From assembly GCF_033971325.1 (NCBI RefSeq), contig NZ_CP117180.1, positions 502,041 to 566,040 of the forward strand: a stretch of 64,000 nucleotides of DNA. The letters run 5' to 3'. The position numbers and the translations under genes are program-made. A model generated the notes under the pieces. The model saw nothing but the letters and a program-made list of their open reading frames with translations. It did no database searches and was not told the DNA's origin. Origin of the DNA: Hydrogenobacter sp. T-2 (GTDB lineage: Bacteria; Aquificota; Aquificia; Aquificales; Aquificaceae). Of the stretch, positions 5,376-18,764 are shown in pieces (within the stretch, counting starts at the first letter, position 1; the number at the start of each line of letters is the position of its first letter).

Positions 5376-7202
5376 TTACCTCCACAAAATTGTTATGAAA
5401 AGCAAAGCCAAAAAGCCAAAAGCCATAAACAAGGCATAAAGGTTTAACTTGCCTGCTTGAAGCATTCTAAGGACACTTCCTGCACCCCTCATTGCTGGAT
5501 AGGTGGCATTTACAAGCCCGTCTATGAGCTGTCTTTCTGCGGTCATGTAAAGTATTTTAGAGTAGAAGAGGTAGCCACCTGCCAAGACTTTATGGTAAAG
5601 CCTTTCAGTAAAGAACTGCTCTTTGAAGGTAGTATGCAAAGGCTTGAGAGCCTCATATGCCTTCTGTGGGTCTATCAAACCCTTCACATACACAAGATAG
5701 GCTACACCTATACCCGCTAAACCCACAAACACAGACAGTATGGCTATCTCTATGTGCAGTTCCTTCTTTACTCCCAATACACTACCATACCACCCCTCAA
5801 AAAATCCTGCGGACACCGCCATTACTCCCAACACTACCATCGGTATCGTCATCACTCCCGGGCTTTCATGTGGTTCCTCTTTATGCTCGTGCCTGAAATG
5901 CTCCTTGCCATGAAACATGACAAAGCCTTCCCTGAATATGTAATAGGCTGTCAAAAAGCTCACTACAGACACAAGCACTCCCCAGAAAAAGCTCACCTCA
6001 TAGGCAGTTGCCACTATGAGGTCCTTGCTCCAAAAACCTGATAGTGGAAATATTCCCGCCAATGCCAATGCTCCCACAAGAAAACTGCCATAGGTTATGG
6101 GCATGTATCTTTTCAAGTTTCCTGTCTCGTATATGTCATGCACATGGTGGTGAAAGGCATGGATTATTGAACCTGCAGAGAGGAAAAGTAGGGCTTTGAA
6201 AAAGGCATGAGTGGTAAGGTGAAACATGGCGGACATCTTGTCTCCAAGACCCAAAGCCAAAAACATAAGTCCAAGCTGGCTCATGGTGGAAAAGGCGATT
6301 ATCTTTTTGATGTCTGTGTTAGAGGTTGCAGCGAGGGCTGCAAAGAGGGCAGTTATACCTCCCACAAGGGCAACAACCTTTAAACTCTGTGGTGCGTTTT
6401 CAAACATGGGATAGAGCCTTGCAACCATATAAACACCTGCTGCCACCATGGTAGCAGCGTGCAAAAGGGCAGAAACAGGAGTAGGACCAGCCATAGCATT
6501 AGGAAGCCATGTGTGAAGAGGAAGTTGACCAGACTTTCCTACCGCACCACCAAATAGCAACAAACACGCAAGACCAAGAAGTGCCTTGTCCACCTCAGAG
6601 ACCTTGCCAAAAATGTCAAGAATAGACAAAGAACCAAAAAGGTAAAAGGTAGCAATAATGCCAAAGAGGAAAAACCAGTCTCCGATACGGTTTAGAGTAA
6701 AAGCCTCAAAGGAGGCATTAGCGGACTTTTTCTGAGTGTGGAAGTATCCAATAAGCAGATAAGAGGCAAGACCAACGCCTTCCCAGCCAAAGAAGATACC
6801 AAGCAAGTTATCGGAAAGCACGATAAGAAGCATGGCAAAGAGGAAGAGGGAAAGGTATGCATAGAACTTAAAAGTCCACTGACCAAAGAGGTTAGACATG
6901 TAGCCTACAGAGTATATGAAGATGAGAGTAGCCACGAAGGTAACCACAGAGGCGGTGATAGAAGAGAGTGCGTCAAAGTAAAGACCCAGGGATAGTGTGT
7001 AGTCTCCCAGAGGCAGGAATTCGTAGAGTTTAAGGCTAAAGGGTTGAGAGAGAGCCTTTGAGGTAGCCCATAGGGAGAAGATAAAGGAGAAGAGGGAGCC
7101 AAGTATGGCTATAATTGCGGAAGCCATGTCTCCTATTCTTGAGCCAAAGAGACCTATTATCAAAAAGGCTATTAGAGGTGAGATAAGAACCAGTATCTCC
7201 AT
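5376..7202 (-). CDS. nuoL: NADH-quinone oxidoreductase subunit L (copy 1)
   Basis: A 608-residue antiporter-like subunit at the tip of the complex I membrane arm. It shows FFGWEGVGLASYLLIG, GKSGQLPLHTWLPNAM and KALLFLSAGSIIHA, and a C-terminal amphipathic segment with a final membrane helix. Residues 4 to about 536 are nearly identical to the second NuoL (16851-18764); after FFTERLYH the two proteins are unrelated at sequence level. The DNA identity is ungapped from about 5592 to 7187, pointing to recent gene conversion or duplication restricted to this gene. Confidence 0.96.
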   Translation of the reverse strand: MEILVLISPLIAFLIIGLFGSRIGDMASAIIAILGSLFSFIFSLWATSKALSQPFSLKLYEFLPLGDYTLSLGLYFDALSSITASVVTFVATLIFIYSVGYMSNLFGQWTFKFYAYLSLFLFAMLLIVLSDNLLGIFFGWEGVGLASYLLIGYFHTQKKSANASFEAFTLNRIGDWFFLFGIIATFYLFGSLSILDIFGKVSEVDKALLGLACLLLFGGAVGKSGQLPLHTWLPNAMAGPTPVSALLHAATMVAAGVYMVARLYPMFENAPQSLKVVALVGGITALFAALAATSNTDIKKIIAFSTMSQLGLMFLALGLGDKMSAMFHLTTHAFFKALLFLSAGSIIHAFHHHVHDIYETGNLKRYMPITYGSFLVGALALAGIFPLSGFWSKDLIVATAYEVSFFWGVLVSVVSFLTAYYIFREGFVMFHGKEHFRHEHKEEPHESPGVMTIPMVVLGVMAVSAGFFEGWYGSVLGVKKELHIEIAILSVFVGLAGIGVAYLVYVKGLIDPQKAYEALKPLHTTFKEQFFTERLYHKVLAGGYLFYSKILYMTAERQLIDGLVNATYPAMRGAGSVLRMLQAGKLNLYALFMAFGFLALLFITILWR

Positions 7203-8649: not shown

Positions 8650-9165
8650 TTACCTCCATATTTCTTCCTCTTTTAGTTCAATAAGGCACTCTTTTATACT
8701 AAACCTTAAGTTTTCCAAGGGCACATACCCTTCAGAAGTGTTTCTATATACCTTTAAGATTTTTTCCTCTGGATAAAGGAGTATGTAGTAGGGAACACCA
8801 AGCTCTTGATATATTTCAAACTTTGTCCTTTCGTCGTGCTTTTTTGAAGTTTTCGAAACCACCTCCACAATAAGCACGGGTGTTTCTCTTATGTAGTCTT
8901 CGTTTCCTCCATCGCAAAGGACCGATATATCTGGTCTTAGGACGGTGTCTTCTGAAAGGACCCAGTCTACCTCTGAAAGAACCTCACAGGGACACTGTTT
9001 TTCCTCAAGTGTCTGGACTATAAGCCTTTGTAAGCGAAAGACAAACCTTTGGTGAAGCCTTGTGGACAAAGCCTTGGCGTAGGGAATACCTTCTATAAGC
9101 TCCCAGTCGCCTTGCCACTTTGCGTAGTCTTCGTAGGTGTAGTGGGGCAAGTGCTCCACCTTCAT
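8650..9165 (-). CDS. Uma2 family protein (DUF820, restriction endonuclease-like fold), copy 1 of 4 in the nuo operon
   Basis: I chose the ATG at 9165 (MKVEHLPHYTYEDYAKW), which matches the start of the three paralogues and overlaps the stop of the preceding paralogue (ATGA). The conserved blocks are WELIEGIPYA, VLSEDTVLRPDISVLCDG, VLIVEVVSKTSKKHDERTKF and GVPYYILLYPE, the Uma2/DUF820 pattern with the D...E-x-V residues of a PD-(D/E)XK-like fold. Biochemical function is not established for the family; no role in complex I is known. The gene ends in -IWR*, whose codons TGG AGG TAA act as the ribosome-binding site for nuoI. It is the most divergent of the four copies. Confidence 0.85.
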   Translation of the reverse strand: MKVEHLPHYTYEDYAKWQGDWELIEGIPYAKALSTRLHQRFVFRLQRLIVQTLEEKQCPCEVLSEVDWVLSEDTVLRPDISVLCDGGNEDYIRETPVLIVEVVSKTSKKHDERTKFEIYQELGVPYYILLYPEEKILKVYRNTSEGYVPLENLRFSIKECLIELKEEEIWR

Positions 9166-9680
9166 GCCAAGCTCCACAAGGTGTTTATATCAATTTCCAC
9201 TTCACAGTCCTTTAGCCTAAGCCTTAGGTTTTCTATGGCTTTAAAGCCATCTTTTGTGTTTTTGTAAGCCTTCCAGCTTTTTTGTTCTGGGTATATTAGT
9301 ATATAGTATGGGACGCCAAGCTCCTCATACTTTTCAAACTTTATGACCTCATCCTGAAGTTTTGAGCTTTCTGAAACTACCTCTAATACGAGTTCTGGTC
9401 TCTGTCTTATGTAGTCTGTGGGTTTTTCACAGAGGATTACGAGGTCTGGTCTAAGGACGGTGTCCTCTGAGACTATCCAATCAAGCTCTCCTACCACCAA
9501 GCAAGGACAGTTTGCCTTCTTTAGTGCCTCCCTTATAAGGGCGGAGAGCTCAAAGATAACCCACTGATGGGCAAACTTTGGCGAAGCCATGGCGTAGGGA
9601 ATACCTTCTATAAGCTCCCAGTCGCCTTGCCACCTTGCGTAGTCTTCGTAGGTGTAATGGGGCATATGCCTTAGTTTCAT
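9162..9680 (-). CDS. Uma2 family protein (DUF820), copy 2 of 4 in the nuo operon
   Basis: The start is taken at 9680 (MKLRHMPHYTYEDYARW), 2 nt after the nuoH stop with GGAGATGAGG just upstream. It has the family blocks WELIEGIPYAMASPKFAHQ, IVSEDTVLRPDLVILCEKP, PELVLEVVSESSKLQDEVIKF and GVPYYILIYPEQKSWKAYKN. It ends -LWSLA*, a frame variant of the -LWR* end of its paralogues, and its TGG AGC still supplies a GGAG for the next gene. The stop overlaps the next ATG (ATGA). Confidence 0.85.
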   Translation of the reverse strand: MKLRHMPHYTYEDYARWQGDWELIEGIPYAMASPKFAHQWVIFELSALIREALKKANCPCLVVGELDWIVSEDTVLRPDLVILCEKPTDYIRQRPELVLEVVSESSKLQDEVIKFEKYEELGVPYYILIYPEQKSWKAYKNTKDGFKAIENLRLRLKDCEVEIDINTLWSLA

Positions 9681-9682
9681 CC

Positions 9683-10732
9683 TCATCTCCATATGAGGGG
9701 TGCTATAACCGCAGTAAGCACCAAGTTTACAAAGGTAAGGGGTAGCATCACCTTCCAGGCAGTGGCGGTTATCTGGTCAATCCTATATCTTGGCAGTGTC
9801 CAATGAAGCCATAGCACAAAAAGGAATAGAAGGCTTACCTTGAGGATAAACCAGACAAAGGGAGATAAGGGTCCAAGGAAAAAGAGGGGGTCCACAAAGC
9901 CAAGGAAGGGTATGTTTATGGGAGACCAACCACCCAAGAAGAGAACCACCGCAATGGCAGACAAAGATAGCACTTCCACATACCACTCTACAAGTGGGAA
10001 AAGACCAAACTTCATGCCACCGTATTCCACAGTAAAGCCTGTGACCAGCTCCGCCTCTGCCTCTTGTATGTCAAAGGGCACTCTTCCAGTTTCCGCAAGC
10101 ATGGCAAACATGTAGACCACGAAAGCCACAGGTTGTAGCCATATATACCAAAGGTTTTGCTCTATTTGTTTTTGGACTATGTTGTAGGTGGAGAGAGTTC
10201 CTGCCAGTATTATGGGACCCATGACCGCAAAGGTTATAACCACCTCGTAGGAGACCACTATGCCTGCCTTTCTCATAGAGCCTATAAGGGCATACTTGGA
10301 ATTGGAAGCCCATCCTGCCAAGGCTATGGAAAAGACCGCCATAGAACCAAGGGCAAAGACAAGCAGTAGACCAATGTTTACATCGGTAAGAATGGGCTTT
10401 ATCTTGTATCCAAAAAGCTCAAACTCGGGACCAAAGGGAACTACCGCAAAGACCAAAACCGCAGGCACAAGAGCCATCACAAGGGCAAGGTTATACAGAA
10501 ACTTGTTTCCATATCTTGGAAAGATGTCTTCCTTTGTGAGGAGCTTAAGACCGTCCGCAAGGGGTTGCAAAAGTCCGTGCCAACCCACCACCATGGGACC
10601 TGGTCTTCTTTGTATGTGCGCTGCTACCTTTCTCTCCACCAAGGTCAGATACGCACCCACACCAAGGACTATACCCAATATGACCAGTATCTTTATAAGA
10701 GTTATTATGAGCCAAGCGACCACGCTTTCCAT
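9683..10732 (-). CDS. nuoH: NADH-quinone oxidoreductase subunit H
   Basis: A complex I membrane subunit of about 349 residues that forms much of the quinone chamber. Sequence hallmarks are ERKVAAHIQRRPGPM, LADGLKLLTKED, AFVVYMFAMLAETGRVPFD and the EAEAELVTGFTVEYGGM loop. I prefer the ATG at 10732 (MESVVAWLI) to the TTG at 10744, because TGGAGGTAAAC from the end of the upstream Uma2 gene gives an ideal ribosome-binding site. It is the only nuoH in the window, flanked on both sides by Uma2 genes. Confidence 0.95.
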   Translation of the reverse strand: MESVVAWLIITLIKILVILGIVLGVGAYLTLVERKVAAHIQRRPGPMVVGWHGLLQPLADGLKLLTKEDIFPRYGNKFLYNLALVMALVPAVLVFAVVPFGPEFELFGYKIKPILTDVNIGLLLVFALGSMAVFSIALAGWASNSKYALIGSMRKAGIVVSYEVVITFAVMGPIILAGTLSTYNIVQKQIEQNLWYIWLQPVAFVVYMFAMLAETGRVPFDIQEAEAELVTGFTVEYGGMKFGLFPLVEWYVEVLSLSAIAVVLFLGGWSPINIPFLGFVDPLFFLGPLSPFVWFILKVSLLFLFVLWLHWTLPRYRIDQITATAWKVMLPLTFVNLVLTAVIAPLIWR

Positions 10733-10734
10733 GT

Positions 10735-11241
10735 TTACCTCCAAAGCCTTTCTGCGTCTATTTCAAAAGGGCAGTCTTTTACACTAAAGGAGAGCCTTTC
10801 CATAGGCACAAAACCCTCTGAAGTCCATCTGTAGGCTTTCCAGCTTTTGCTTTCTGGATACAGTAGCACATAGTAGGGCACTGCCTCCTGCTCGTAGAGC
10901 TTAAACTTTACAAACTCATCCATCTCCCTTGAGTTCTCTGAAACTATCTCAAAAACCACCTCCGGTCTTTTTCTTATGTAGTCCTGAGGTTCCTCACACA
11001 AAACTACAAGGTCTGGTCTCACAACCGTATCCTCCGATATGACCCAGTCAAGCTCTCCTACCACAAAACAGTTGCATTCTTCAAGCATGTCTTCCAAAAG
11101 CCTTGCCAACACAAACATAAGACGCTGATGGGGGAATTTGGGCGAAGCCATAGCATAGGGAATGCCTTCTATAAGCTCCCAGTCTCCTTGCCACCTTACA
11201 TAGTCCTCATAGGTGTAATGTGGCACATGCCTTAGTTTCAT
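10735..11241 (-). CDS. Uma2 family protein (DUF820), copy 3 of 4 in the nuo operon
   Basis: A 168-residue Uma2 protein starting MKLRHVPHYTYEDYVRW. From NCFVVGELDWVISEDT to the end it is almost identical to copy 4, at DNA as well as protein level (10741-11060 against 11288-11607), so the two arose by a recent tandem duplication; the N-terminal 70 residues differ more. It ends -ERLWR*, with codons TGG AGG TAA directly forming the ribosome-binding site for nuoH. Confidence 0.87.
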   Translation of the reverse strand: MKLRHVPHYTYEDYVRWQGDWELIEGIPYAMASPKFPHQRLMFVLARLLEDMLEECNCFVVGELDWVISEDTVVRPDLVVLCEEPQDYIRKRPEVVFEIVSENSREMDEFVKFKLYEQEAVPYYVLLYPESKSWKAYRWTSEGFVPMERLSFSVKDCPFEIDAERLWR

Positions 11242-11281
11242 CGCTTTATCTCTCCTGCTATAGGGCTTATCATGAACATGT
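11242..11281 (-). pseudogene. Duplicated fossil of a nuoD 3' end between two Uma2 genes
   Basis: After the stop of Uma2 copy 4, the minus strand reads ACATG then ATG-encoded MFMISPIAGEIKR followed by TGA, overlapping the ATG of Uma2 copy 3 (ATGA). This parallels the NuoCD end SIDPVVGEIDR, whose TGA overlaps the ATG of Uma2 copy 4 in the same way. I read it as the tail of a nuoD copy duplicated together with the Uma2 gene. As a 13-codon frame with a good SD it may still be translated, serving only to hand ribosomes on. Confidence 0.5.
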
Positions 11282-11794
11282 TTACCTCCAAAGCCTTTCT
11301 GCGTCTATTTCAAAAGGGCAGTCTTTTACGCTAAAGGAGAGCCTTTCCATAGGCACAAAACCCTCTGAAGTCCATCTGTAGGCTTTCCAGCTTTTGCTTT
11401 CTGGATGCAGTAGCACATAGTAGGGCACTGCCTCCTGCTCGTAGAGCTTAAACTTTACAAACTCATCCATCTCCCTTGAGTTCTCCGAAACTATCTCAAA
11501 GACTACCTCCGGTCTTTTTCTTATGTAGTCCTGAGGTTCTTCACACAAAACTACAAGGTCTGGTCTCACAACCGTATCCTCCGATATGACCCAGTCAAGC
11601 TCTCCTACCACAAAACAGTTGCACTCTTGCTTTTCAAAAAGACTTCTTATTAACCATATAAGAGTTGAGGCTAAGAGCTGATGTTTGAACCTTGGCGAAG
11701 CCATAGCATAGGGAATGCCTTCTATAAGCTCCCAGTCTCCTTGCCACTTTGCGTAGTCCTCATAGGTGTAATGGGGCACATGCCTTAGTTTCAT
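11282..11794 (-). CDS. Uma2 family protein (DUF820), copy 4 of 4 in the nuo operon
   Basis: The frame is open up to 11887 but the true start is the ATG at 11794 (MKLRHVPHYTYEDYAKW), which matches the paralogues and overlaps the nuoCD stop (ATGA). It has WELIEGIPYAMASPRFKHQ, VVGELDWVISEDTVVRPD, VVFEIVSENSREMDEF and AVPYYVLLHPESKSWKAYRW. It ends -ERLWR* like copy 3. It lies directly after nuoCD, where nuoE or nuoH is usually found. Confidence 0.87.
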   Translation of the reverse strand: MKLRHVPHYTYEDYAKWQGDWELIEGIPYAMASPRFKHQLLASTLIWLIRSLFEKQECNCFVVGELDWVISEDTVVRPDLVVLCEEPQDYIRKRPEVVFEIVSENSREMDEFVKFKLYEQEAVPYYVLLHPESKSWKAYRWTSEGFVPMERLSFSVKDCPFEIDAERLWR

Positions 11795-13506
11795 CGGTCT
11801 ATCTCTCCTACCACTGGGTCTATGCTTGCCAAGATGGTAACCGCATCCGCTATTACACGGTCTTTCATGAGCTTGGGATACACGCAAAGGTTATACATAG
11901 AGCCTGGTCTTATCTTTACCCTGTAGGGCTTTGTGCCACCAGTGGAGTATATGTAAAAACCCAGCTCTCCTCTTGGGTTTTCTCCAGAGGAGTATATCTC
12001 TCCCTCTGGTGCTTTTAGACCTATGCCGTCAAGGGGTAGCTTGAGCTTTTTGGGGTCTGGAGATTCCGCAAAGAAGGGTGCATTTTTGAGTTTTTCAAGC
12101 ACCGCCACACACTGTTCTATTATCCTCAGGCTCTGCCTTATCTCCTCAAGCCTTACCAAATAGCGGTCATATACATCGCCATTTTCTCCCACGGGAATGT
12201 CAAACTCCACCCATGGATAGGCATCGTAGGGTTCAAACTTTCTTATATCGTAAGGCACGCCAGAGCCTCTGGCTACTGGACCTGTTAGCCCATAGAAGTA
12301 AACATCCTCCTTGCTTATAACTCCCACTCCCACGTTTCTTCTTAGCCATATCCTGTTCCTACTGAGTATGGTCTCCCACTCCTTTAGCTCCTTTGGAAAT
12401 CTCTTTATAAATGCTTTTATTACCTCCAGAGCACCTTCTGGTAAGTCCATACGCACACCACCGACCCTCGTGTAGGAGATGGTGAGCCTTGCACCAGTTA
12501 TACCCTCTATAATGTCCATAAGTTTTTCTCTCTCCTTAAAGGCATACAGGAATATGGTCAAAGCCCCAAGGTCAAGGGCGTATGTGCCAAGCCACAAAAG
12601 GTGAGAGTTTATCCTCTGAAGTTCTGACATCATAGTGCGGATATACTTTGCCTTTTCTGGAACAAGGTCTTCTATGCCAAGAAGTCTTTCCACTGCCACA
12701 ACCCAAGCCTGATTGGAGCATAGGGCGGAAAGGTAGTCCATACGGTCTGTGTAGACCAGAAACTGGTTATACATCTCGTTTTCTGCTAACTTTTCCACAC
12801 CCCTATGGAGCTGACCCAGTATCACATCGCACTGATAGACCCTTTCCCCCTCAAGGTCAAAGAGAAACCACATAGTCCCGTGCGTTCCCGGATGTAGTGG
12901 TCCCCAGTTTAGCACTATCTGAGCCTTCTTCTTAAGCCTTCTCTTTTCGGTTATCTCAAGGTCTTCCAGAGTTGGCACAGGTGTGTGCATCTTATCGTAG
13001 TTCATAAGACCGTTGAGGTTTTCACCCCATAGGACCTCGTTCAAGGAAGGTAAGTATTCTGTGGCGTAGCCCTCAAGAGGAAAGTCCTTTCTAAGAGGAT
13101 AGTGCTGGTAGGTTTCCCACATAAAGGCACGCACTAAGTTTTCGTGCCCCTCATACCTTATGCCAAACATATCGTAGCATTCTCTTTCTGCCCATTTGCC
13201 CGCAAACCAGAGCTTTTCTATAGAAGGAAGCTCTCCATCCGTCCACGTTTTTACCACTACCCTCTTTTTTTCATCCACGTTGTAGAGGATATAGAAGGCT
13301 TGAAAGCGAGGCTTTTTGTCAGGAAAGTCCACCACTGAGTGGTCAATAAAGAGCTTATAACCCCTTTCTTCCTTTAAGACCTTAAGAAGGTCAATGAGCC
13401 TTTCCTTTTGGATATGAAGAGAGGTAATGGTAGGCTTTTCTTCAATTTCAAGCCCCTCAAACCTGCTCCTTAGGTCAATAAAGTCCTGTCCCTTTGCCCA
13501 AGGCAT
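11791..13506 (-). CDS. nuoCD: NADH-quinone oxidoreductase fused subunit C/D
   Basis: A 571-residue fusion. Residues 1 to about 185 are the NuoC (30-kDa) domain, with ERECYDMFGIRYEGHENLVRA near 110; residues from about 190 are the NuoD (49-kDa) domain with LNWGPLHPGTHGTM, QLHRGVEKLAE, and the C-terminal KIRPGSMYNL and ASIDPVVGEIDR. NuoD lines the quinone site next to NuoB. Upstream the gap to nuoA is only 11 bp, so nuoB, which normally sits between nuoA and nuoC, is missing here. SD AAGGAG precedes the ATG. Confidence 0.95.
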   Translation of the reverse strand: MPWAKGQDFIDLRSRFEGLEIEEKPTITSLHIQKERLIDLLKVLKEERGYKLFIDHSVVDFPDKKPRFQAFYILYNVDEKKRVVVKTWTDGELPSIEKLWFAGKWAERECYDMFGIRYEGHENLVRAFMWETYQHYPLRKDFPLEGYATEYLPSLNEVLWGENLNGLMNYDKMHTPVPTLEDLEITEKRRLKKKAQIVLNWGPLHPGTHGTMWFLFDLEGERVYQCDVILGQLHRGVEKLAENEMYNQFLVYTDRMDYLSALCSNQAWVVAVERLLGIEDLVPEKAKYIRTMMSELQRINSHLLWLGTYALDLGALTIFLYAFKEREKLMDIIEGITGARLTISYTRVGGVRMDLPEGALEVIKAFIKRFPKELKEWETILSRNRIWLRRNVGVGVISKEDVYFYGLTGPVARGSGVPYDIRKFEPYDAYPWVEFDIPVGENGDVYDRYLVRLEEIRQSLRIIEQCVAVLEKLKNAPFFAESPDPKKLKLPLDGIGLKAPEGEIYSSGENPRGELGFYIYSTGGTKPYRVKIRPGSMYNLCVYPKLMKDRVIADAVTILASIDPVVGEIDR

Positions 13507-13517
13507 CTCACACTCCT

Positions 13518-13889
13518 TTAGAGGCTTTCTTCTTCAAACTGCCAATCAAGGGCTCCCTTTCTCCAAGCATAAAGAAGCCCATAAGTTAATATAAGTATAA
13601 AGAGGAACATCTCCACAAAGCCAAAAACCCCCAGATACCTGTAAACTACCGTCCAAGGAAAAAGAAAGGCAGCCTCTATGTCAAAGAGCAAAAGCAGTAG
13701 ACCAAGCAGGTAATAACCTTGATGGAAGGTAGACTGAGCGGATTTATCGTAAAGAGGCACTCCACACTCATAAGGATAGTCTTGCATAGCATCTGAGCTT
13801 TTTGGACCCAGTAGCTTGTTTACAAAGACAAAGACCAAGGCTAAGCCTAACATAATGCCTAAGAATATGAGCAGTGCTATATACTCCAT
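13518..13889 (-). CDS. nuoA: NADH-quinone oxidoreductase subunit A
   Basis: A 123-residue protein with three hydrophobic helices. Characteristic sequences are YPYECGVPLYDKSAQSTFH in the loop after helix 1 (the quinone-site loop with its cysteine) and LFDIEAAFLFPW in helix 2. It is 4 bp downstream of nuoN2 and directly followed by nuoCD without nuoB. Confidence 0.95.
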   Translation of the reverse strand: MEYIALLIFLGIMLGLALVFVFVNKLLGPKSSDAMQDYPYECGVPLYDKSAQSTFHQGYYLLGLLLLLFDIEAAFLFPWTVVYRYLGVFGFVEMFLFILILTYGLLYAWRKGALDWQFEEESL

Positions 13890-16850: not shown

Positions 16851-18764
16851 TCACCTCATGCTGTATAGTATGACACCCAGTATAAAGACCACACCAAGTA
16901 GTAGAAAGCTCACATAGTTGTTAAGAAGACCTGTCTGTATGTTCCTTACCTTTTTACCCATCCAGTAGGACAGCTTTGCCACGCCGTTGACAAAAAGGTC
17001 CACAAGCATTATATCCAACTTCATCCAGAGGAACTTCACCACCTTAAAGTAGAGGAAGTTAAGGAGGTTTATAAAGCCATCTATCAAAACCCTATCACCA
17101 ACAAGGAAAAGGCCCTTAGAAAGACCCATATAACCCCTTGCTATGCCCCTATGGTAAAGCCTTTCAGTAAAGAACTGCTCCTTGAAGGTAGTATGCAAAG
17201 GCTTGAGAGCCTCATATGCCTTCTGTGGGTCTATCAAACCCTTCACATACACAAGATAGGCTACACCTATACCCGCTAAACCCACAAACACAGACAGTAT
17301 GGCTATTTCTATATGTAGCTCCTTCTTTACTCCCAATACACTGCCATACCACCCCTCAAAAAATCCTGCCACTACCGCCATTACTCCTAACACTACCATC
17401 GGTATCGTCATCACTCCCGGGCTTTCATGTGGTTCCTCTTTATGCTCGTGCCTGAAATGCTCCTTGCCATGAAACATGACAAAGCCTTCCCTGAATATGT
17501 AATAGGCTGTCAAAAAGCTCACTACAGACACAAGCACTCCCCAGAAAAAGCTCACCTCATAGGCAGTTGCCACTATGAGGTCCTTGCTCCAAAAACCTGA
17601 TAGTGGAAATATTCCCGCCAATGCCAATGCTCCCACAAGAAAACTGCCATAGGTTATGGGCATGTATCTTTTCAAGTTTCCTGTCTCGTATATGTCATGC
17701 ACATGGTGGTGAAAGGCATGGATTATTGAACCTGCAGAGAGGAAAAGTAGGGCTTTGAAAAAGGCATGAGTGGTAAGGTGAAACATGGCGGACATCTTGT
17801 CTCCAAGACCCAAAGCCAAAAACATAAGTCCAAGCTGGCTCATGGTGGAAAAGGCGATTATCTTTTTGATGTCTGTGTTAGAGGTTGCAGCGAGGGCTGC
17901 AAAGAGGGCAGTTATACCTCCCACAAGGGCAACAACCTTTAAACTCTGTGGTGCGTTTTCAAACATGGGATAGAGCCTTGCAACCATATAAACACCTGCT
18001 GCCACCATGGTAGCAGCGTGCAAAAGGGCAGAAACAGGAGTAGGACCAGCCATAGCATTAGGAAGCCATGTGTGAAGAGGAAGTTGACCAGACTTTCCTA
18101 CCGCACCACCAAATAGCAACAAACACGCAAGACCAAGAAGTGCCTTGTCCACCTCAGAGACCCTGCCAAAAATGTCAAGAAGAGACAAAGAACCAAAAAG
18201 GTAAAAGGTGGCGATAATGCCAAAGAGGAAAAACCAGTCTCCGATACGGTTTAGGGTAAAAGCCTCAAAGGAGGCATTAGAAGCCTTTTTCTGAGTGTGG
18301 AAGTATCCAATAAGCAGATAAGAGGCAAGACCCACACCTTCCCAGCCAAAGAAGATACCAAGAAGGTTATCAGAAAGCACAATAAGGAGCATGGCAAAGA
18401 GGAAAAGAGAAAGATAGGCATAGAACTTAAAAGTCCACTGACCGAAGAGGTTATGCATATAGCCTACAGAGTATATGAAGATAAGAGTAGCCACGAAGGT
18501 AACCACAGAGGCAGTGATAGAAGAGAGTGCGTCAAAGTAAAGACCAAGCGATAGTGTGTAGTCTCCCAGAGGCAGGAATTCGTAGAGTTTTATGCTAAAG
18601 GGTTGAGAGAGAGCCTTTGAGGTAGTCCATAGGGAGAAGATAAAGGAGAAGAGGGAGCCAAGTATGGCTATAATTGCGGAAGCCATGTCTCCTATTCTTG
18701 AGCCAAAGAGACCTATTATCAAAAAGGCTATAAGAGGTGAAAGAAGAACCACCAAGCCTTCCAT
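16851..18764 (-). CDS. nuoL: NADH-quinone oxidoreductase subunit L (copy 2)
   Basis: A 637-residue NuoL. Residues 5 to about 537 are nearly identical to copy 1, with an ungapped 1.6-kb DNA match (about 17151-18746) at a constant offset of 11559. The C-terminal 100 residues are unrelated to copy 1 and extend with a long hydrophobic/amphipathic tail ending in a final membrane helix. That a variable end has been kept while the core was homogenised suggests the C-terminal part is tuned to the partner NuoM/N of its own set. Confidence 0.95.
   Translation of the reverse strand: MEGLVVLLSPLIAFLIIGLFGSRIGDMASAIIAILGSLFSFIFSLWTTSKALSQPFSIKLYEFLPLGDYTLSLGLYFDALSSITASVVTFVATLIFIYSVGYMHNLFGQWTFKFYAYLSLFLFAMLLIVLSDNLLGIFFGWEGVGLASYLLIGYFHTQKKASNASFEAFTLNRIGDWFFLFGIIATFYLFGSLSLLDIFGRVSEVDKALLGLACLLLFGGAVGKSGQLPLHTWLPNAMAGPTPVSALLHAATMVAAGVYMVARLYPMFENAPQSLKVVALVGGITALFAALAATSNTDIKKIIAFSTMSQLGLMFLALGLGDKMSAMFHLTTHAFFKALLFLSAGSIIHAFHHHVHDIYETGNLKRYMPITYGSFLVGALALAGIFPLSGFWSKDLIVATAYEVSFFWGVLVSVVSFLTAYYIFREGFVMFHGKEHFRHEHKEEPHESPGVMTIPMVVLGVMAVVAGFFEGWYGSVLGVKKELHIEIAILSVFVGLAGIGVAYLVYVKGLIDPQKAYEALKPLHTTFKEQFFTERLYHRGIARGYMGLSKGLFLVGDRVLIDGFINLLNFLYFKVVKFLWMKLDIMLVDLFVNGVAKLSYWMGKKVRNIQTGLLNNYVSFLLLGVVFILGVILYSMR

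Follow-up and report, generated by a model that had tools for sequence, protein, structure and literature searches.

Uma2 genes with a predicted nuclease fold and one variable helix at respiratory operon junctions of Hydrogenobacter sp. T-2 and its relatives

Uma2 genes around nuoH

The window analysed here is the whole stretch of 64,000 nucleotides at positions 502,041 to 566,040 of contig NZ_CP117180.1 (G000:C1:502041-566040) from Hydrogenobacter sp. T-2. This source genome, called G000 below, is complete (1.69 Mb), and its closest named relatives are Aquificaceae. The minus strand carries an operon for respiratory complex I, nuo1, with the order nuoL2-M2-N2-A-CD-umaD-umaC-H-umaB-umaA-I-J-K-L-M-N; a second, paralogous operon of the same genomes is called nuo2. 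Our subject is the group of four uma genes that surround nuoH (Table 1). Their open reading frames (ORFs) match the Pfam family Uma2 (PF05685) with 71-85 bits in a profile search, well above the curated cut-off of 27 bits, in agreement with the initial annotation, which had placed four Uma2 genes on both sides of nuoH. Uma2 is a large and widespread bacterial family with solved structures, for which a function is not established. The nuoCD^nuoH and nuoH^nuoI junctions are abbreviated CD^H and H^I.

The tight coupling of these genes was also confirmed. From umaD to nuoI, all starts overlap the previous stop in an ATGA-type arrangement or lie 2-3 nt downstream of it. The nuoCD stop (11793-11791) overlaps the umaD ATG at 11794 (ATGA), and the nuoCD tail VVGEIDR*, which is common to relatives free of Uma2, encodes GGAGAGATAGACCGATGA, a Shine-Dalgarno (SD) site plus the overlapping umaD start. 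A mini-frame lies between umaD and umaC; its ATG is at 11279, 2 nt past the umaD end at 11282 and not at 11281 as first given, and its TGA overlaps the umaC ATG at 11241. It resembles the NuoCD tail DPVVGEIDR*, with 22 of 34 nt matching in register, and is likely a scar with a copy of that tail, left by the tandem duplication that produced umaC and umaD. The best start for nuoH is the ATG at 10732, 2 nt past the umaC end (10735). The umaB ATG at 9680 stands 2 nt past the nuoH end (9683), with an alternative ATG upstream at 9692, and the umaB end (9162) overlaps the umaA ATG at 9165. Two relationships to the genome G007 were found: umaC is the orthologue of its single CD^H copy, with an identical variable segment, and umaA clusters in the tree with its H^I copy and with one CD^H copy of G011.

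Table 1. Features of the nuo1 operon around nuoH (window positions)
Feature	Position	Strand	Evidence
nuoCD (fused NuoC/NuoD)	11791..13506	-	Pfam Complex1_49kDa 6e-97, Complex1_30kDa 2e-34
umaD, Uma2, 170 aa, ends RLWR* (TGG AGG TAA)	11282..11794	-	Pfam Uma2 2e-21
variable part of umaD, core helix 1 (about residues 34-57), exchanged in comparison with umaC	11623..11695	-	
mini-frame MFMISPIAGEIKR*	11238..11279	-	sequence; ATG 2 nt past umaD end
umaC, Uma2, 168 aa, ends RLWR* (TGG AGG TAA)	10735..11241	-	Pfam Uma2 7e-20
nuoH, ends LIWR* (TGG AGA TGA)	9683..10732	-	Pfam NADHdh 1e-110
umaB, Uma2, H^I gap, ends LWSLA* (TGG AGC TTG GCA TGA)	9162..9680	-	Pfam Uma2 3e-23
umaA, Uma2, H^I gap, ends EIWR* (TGG AGG TAA)	8650..9165	-	Pfam Uma2 5e-24
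nuoI, ATG 8646, starts 3 nt past umaA	8023..8646	-	Pfam Fer4 families

The genome contains GGATCACCTCCTTT, a 3' end of the 16S type that can pair with GGAGGT, and TGGAGGTAA is therefore a proper SD site. As initially described, three Uma2 copies (umaA, umaC and umaD) end in TGG AGG TAA, which serves as the SD for the next start. The fourth had been credited with a GGAG in a shifted frame; umaB has TGG AGC instead, in the same codon phase. In the window and eight further loci of the same genome, the SD lies wholly within the upstream ORF in 19 of the 21 tight pairs whose upstream gene is Uma2, versus 30 of 63 pairs without Uma2, a comparison set that contains some wrong ORF calls. This placement exceeds chance for the Uma2 pairs. 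The idea that a WR* ending with SD is a general property of Uma2 genes failed, however. At least 16 relatives whose nuoI directly follows nuoH, without Uma2, have a nuoH ending in TGG AGG TAA or TGA. In the window the last codons of nuoL, which ends in ILWR* (TGGAGGTAA), of nuoM (VLGG*) and of nuoN2 (LFMR*) each include the SD; the MR* and GG* endings of nuo genes go with GAGGT. Uma2 copies at other junctions end in FGGL*, IEP* or LEVV*. Since Uma2-free nuoH and nuoL carry the same ending, WR* was excluded as a Uma2 signature, and the -WR*/SD ending is a property of the operon and not of Uma2. The end of the inserted frame thus coincides with a pre-existing kind of ribosome-binding site. In the Uma2-free operons of G002 and G004, GAGGTAAG or GGAGGTAA precedes nuoH immediately past the nuoCD stop, and the conserved NuoD end GE(I/T)DR* encodes GGAGA...ATGA, a ready-made start. 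Integration may have used GGAGGT repeats as microhomology.

The umaD structure model, obtained by alignment-based prediction, has a pLDDT of 93.9, and Foldseek matched it to the Uma2 crystal structures 6okh, 9y1l, 3ot2 and 1wdj (query TM 0.64-0.84). Residues D79, P95, E100 and K114 are invariant in 84 copies. The catalytic D, E and K of the PD-(D/E)XK pattern (PMC551604) are in register, and the proteins are predicted nucleases. Between umaC and its G007 orthologue, the proportion of nonsynonymous differences (pN) outside the variable segment is 0.041 and that of synonymous differences (pS) 0.25; selection against amino-acid change is thus visible in the comparison of orthologues.

Occupancy of operon junctions in relatives

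Comparison of the nuo operons of relatives, proposed together with the initial annotation, revealed that Uma2 presence and position differ. At the nuo1 CD^H junction, intact Uma2 genes were found in 8 of 28 operons (G000, G001, G007, G010, G011, G013, G021 and G028) and remnants in two (G008 and G009), and 18 junctions are empty; the named record L028 also holds an intact copy there. The nuo2 CD^H junction is occupied by intact genes in 8 of 19 operons (G000, G003, G004, G007, G011, G013, G021 and G028) and also in the records L029 and L030. Of the remnants at this junction, that of G005 is clear and that of G008 unclear. H^I is filled only in G000 (two copies) and G007 (one copy), and no Uma2 remnants were found in G001 and G010, whose nuoH-nuoI gaps are long. 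In G005 an internal deletion has left the frame intact, and the remnant matches the G004 copy at 72% of its first 18 and 82% of its last 11 residues. The nuo1 remnant of G008 is a single open frame with less similarity, and that of G009 is a 95-residue piece, in frame. Among 80 nuoH loci, no Uma2 match was detected outside Aquificaceae, the only matches being three Aquificaceae records. In the family f3, Uma2 copies are scattered and none adjoins nuoH in the genomes compared by position.

Other irregularities were observed at these loci. Where relatives hold Uma2, the CD-H gap of G009 nuo2 (L162) has a small ORF of another kind, containing a coiled-coil-like repeat (...NKRFKDINKRFEDMNRRIDDINRRL...). 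Directly after nuoH2, L192:8168-8791 encodes a charged helical protein of 207 aa with no Pfam match. The CD-H junction of G003 nuo2 (L194) contains one intact Uma2 gene, one broken with undetermined bases and a third, possibly an assembly problem or a recent rearrangement. The nuoH of G016 nuo1 (L151) is in two overlapping frames, which suggests a frameshift or sequencing error.

There are 26 Uma2 copies in G000, from 27 matches, one gene being apparently split across contig ends. This gene appears to span the ends of a single contig (L026/L027), consistent with a circular chromosome. Beyond nuo1, five copies lie between psrA and psrB, three around a CODH-epsilon gene upstream of porA, five beside redoxin and two in nuo2 (psr and por names were assigned from Pfam domains). 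Others adjoin argG, AICAR transformylase, ALAD and an inositol phosphatase/Usp pair. Across genomes, one to five copies occupy psrA^psrB (11 genomes) and one to four occupy por (7 genomes). In Aquifex aeolicus the PFOR cluster contains the Uma2 gene aq_1194 (PMC10052474), a single gene at the same type of junction as the por-linked copies here.

A role as complex I assembly factor, the other suggestion of the initial annotation, or as a regulatory factor could explain the recurrent nuoCD-nuoH placement in two paralogous operons and the purifying selection. Such a role is highly improbable. Most relatives lack Uma2 at these places, 21 of the 61 family genomes searched yielded none at all, and the genes are not conserved with the operon across relatives, which speaks against a factor that complex I requires. 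The genes are equally found in psr, por and unrelated operons, and the aq_1194 protein is not part of the PFOR enzyme, being absent from its band (PMC10052474). The Uma2 genes look functional by selection, with predicted catalytic residues kept, yet dispensable to complex I.

A tree was computed with the variable helix removed. One branch each set apart all 22 psr (support 97), all 16 por (99) and all 10 nuo2 copies (84), and the 14 nuo1 copies formed one group together with five other copies; redoxin-linked copies sorted less cleanly. Uma2 clades are thus locked to junctions (nuoCD^nuoH, psrA^psrB, por/CODH) and not freely mobile. The nuo1 and nuo2 copies lie far apart, and for this reason the CD^H boundary was probably settled independently by two Uma2 lineages. 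The initial annotation had proposed insertion of a mobile or selfish gene. This stands in that presence, position and copy number vary while tight coupling is kept in the filled operons, but mobility is low, the clades being locked to their junctions. COG4636/Uma2 was described as a proliferating family of putative PD-(D/E)XK nucleases for which selfish spread was proposed, and that survey found no recurrent neighbours and only rare tandem copies in the genomes then known (Feder and Bujnicki 2005, PMC551604). The copies studied here share the family, the catalytic pattern H-PD-EXX-K and the multi-copy genomes, but they are junction-locked and commonly in tandem arrays, and variation of helix 1 does not figure in the consulted passages of the survey. 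At least in Aquificaceae, the recurrent placement at redox-operon junctions, specific to each clade, is unlike the random insertion reported before.

Freestanding homing endonuclease genes are site-locked, dispensable and decaying nuclease-coding insertions between conserved genes. A Uma2 enzyme of this kind would cut the uninterrupted nuoCD-nuoH or psrA-psrB junction, be copied in by repair and then decay. Site-specific presence and absence among relatives was indeed found, with single-junction clades, empty and filled alleles, decaying remnants and conserved predicted catalytic residues, and homing-like spread of COG4636 had been proposed in the 2005 survey (PMC551604). However, tandem arrays of two to five copies with different, exchanged helices at one site are unexpected for homing, and two distant clades share the nuoCD^nuoH boundary in nuo1 and nuo2. 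We regard homing as distinctly unlikely here.

The variable core helix

An alignment of the umaC and umaD genes shows 10 differences in the 438 nt outside residues 34-56 and 37 in the 66 nt that encode them (p 7e-29), and the two proteins are about 97% alike outside the helix. The same was found in 59 of 61 tandem pairs, where the helix is 5-53% and the flanks 61-97% identical; in 39 of the tandem pairs helix identity is below that of every other protein window. Two G003 pairs, whose helices are identical, make up the exceptions. When all pairs with a flank identity of 85% or more are taken together, they fall into two classes, 27 pairs with a helix identity of 0.1-0.5 and 20 pairs with 0.9-1.0, and no pair lies between. 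The high-identity class consists mostly of orthologues of different species with pN near 0-0.05 in the helix, so the helix is constrained once established. In the psr arrays of G000 and G007, the helix versions identify the orthologues. The flanks are about equally close within an array and between species (flank pS about 0.2 in both), which points to gene conversion in these arrays.

In the model, the variable segment corresponds to core helix 36-55, whose start lies shortly before the conserved H38. All non-redundant versions have hydrophobic residues at positions 45 and 49, and the other positions vary and are often hydrophobic. This residue pattern would suit a surface for contacts between proteins more than one that binds DNA. 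Helix 1 has the look of a specificity cassette that is exchanged while its flanks are homogenised. A diversity-generating retroelement was considered and set aside, the genome having no match to the reverse transcriptase profile RVT_1, and no donor for the DNA of the umaD helix was found in 14 genomes of the genus.

The pattern might also be passive. Gene conversion needs sequence identity, so conversion would homogenise the flanks and could not cross a diverged, weakly constrained helix, which would have no special function. Conversion does appear active, array flanks being about as close as those of orthologues, and pS of the helix is saturated between paralogues. Against this, the helix of orthologues is strongly constrained and therefore not free to drift. 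Moreover, umaC and umaD look recently duplicated (flank pS about 0.08, duplicated nuoCD tail) and their helices are wholly different, so an actual replacement of the helix would be needed. A passive origin is therefore somewhat unlikely.

A defence or toxin-like function was also weighed, in which each copy would sense or restrain something different via its helix, with activity tied to operon expression. The helix versions of neighbours are distinct and constrained within a lineage, as such modules would predict. Uma2 paralogue cassettes without antitoxin have been read as solo toxins (Makarova et al. 2009, PMC2701414); tandem paralogues without antitoxin are common to both cases, and junction locking and helix exchange are not part of the consulted section of that account. 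In Synechocystis, Sll1222 (DUF820) is encoded in the hox hydrogenase operon (PMC4963859), likewise within an operon for a redox complex, but as a single copy beside a toxin-antitoxin pair, in another operon and phylum. Our loci differ from a type II toxin-antitoxin system in the lack of an adjacent antitoxin: the nuo copies are flanked by nuo genes or Uma2 only, and no antitoxin was detected among the other neighbours scanned. Nor did a known defence gene or an immunity partner turn up next to the nuo copies (no PADLOC scan of Uma2 was made). We consider this reading of the arrays unlikely.

Possible mode of spread and other features of the nuo operons

The reading we favour, and to which we would give an even chance, is that these Uma2 genes encode long-resident predicted nucleases that hitchhike in operons of redox complexes, multiplying locally and diversifying one helix. 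Entry would be rare, at a boundary where the upstream gene already supplies a start (the NuoD tail GGAGA...ATGA), and the entering frame would end on, or recombine through, the GGAGGT of the operon. Tandem duplication and gene conversion would then account for local spread; copies are lost by internal deletion. Helix 1 would be a replaceable element that sets specificity, most likely in the pairing of proteins, with self versus a sister paralogue or with a restraining partner, because its variable positions are often hydrophobic and positions 45 and 49 always so. The enzyme would probably be a selfish or toxin-like nuclease, whose helix diversity keeps sister proteins or partners apart, and placement in the operon would secure its expression and make removal costly. 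The biochemical role of the Uma2 proteins is here an inference.

Several points weigh against this reading. Dispensability rests on genome comparison rather than on knock-out, and three in-frame remnants do not suffice to establish selection on the frame. The helix pattern could be a passive outcome of gene conversion, as discussed above. In addition, a strong selfish-element view is weakened by site locking, which indicates low present-day mobility.

More tentatively, the Uma2 arrays could be multi-specificity systems, in which a shared scaffold is kept uniform by gene conversion and an exchangeable helix sets pairing or recognition, the whole being wired into the translation chain of a respiratory operon. 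Among described bacterial systems we know of none like this, and the open-licence papers covered by our literature search yielded no description of junction locking, helix variation or cassettes in Uma2. The bimodal helix is a concrete clue to function, as it pinpoints the residues that separate sister paralogues, and umaC and umaD are a ready pair.

Two further features concern the nuo genes themselves. The two nuoL copies of nuo1 (window 5376-7202 and 16851-18764) are 100% identical in DNA over about 600 nt and mostly 92-99% identical in the rest, with a sharp divergence in the last ~300 nt, likely a gene-conversion tract. In nuo1 (window 11791-13889), nuoB is not between nuoA and nuoCD, and a nuoB-type gene of the Oxidored_q6 family is located in nuo2 (L192:3790-4326); on this basis, the nuo1 and nuo2 operons may share nuoB.

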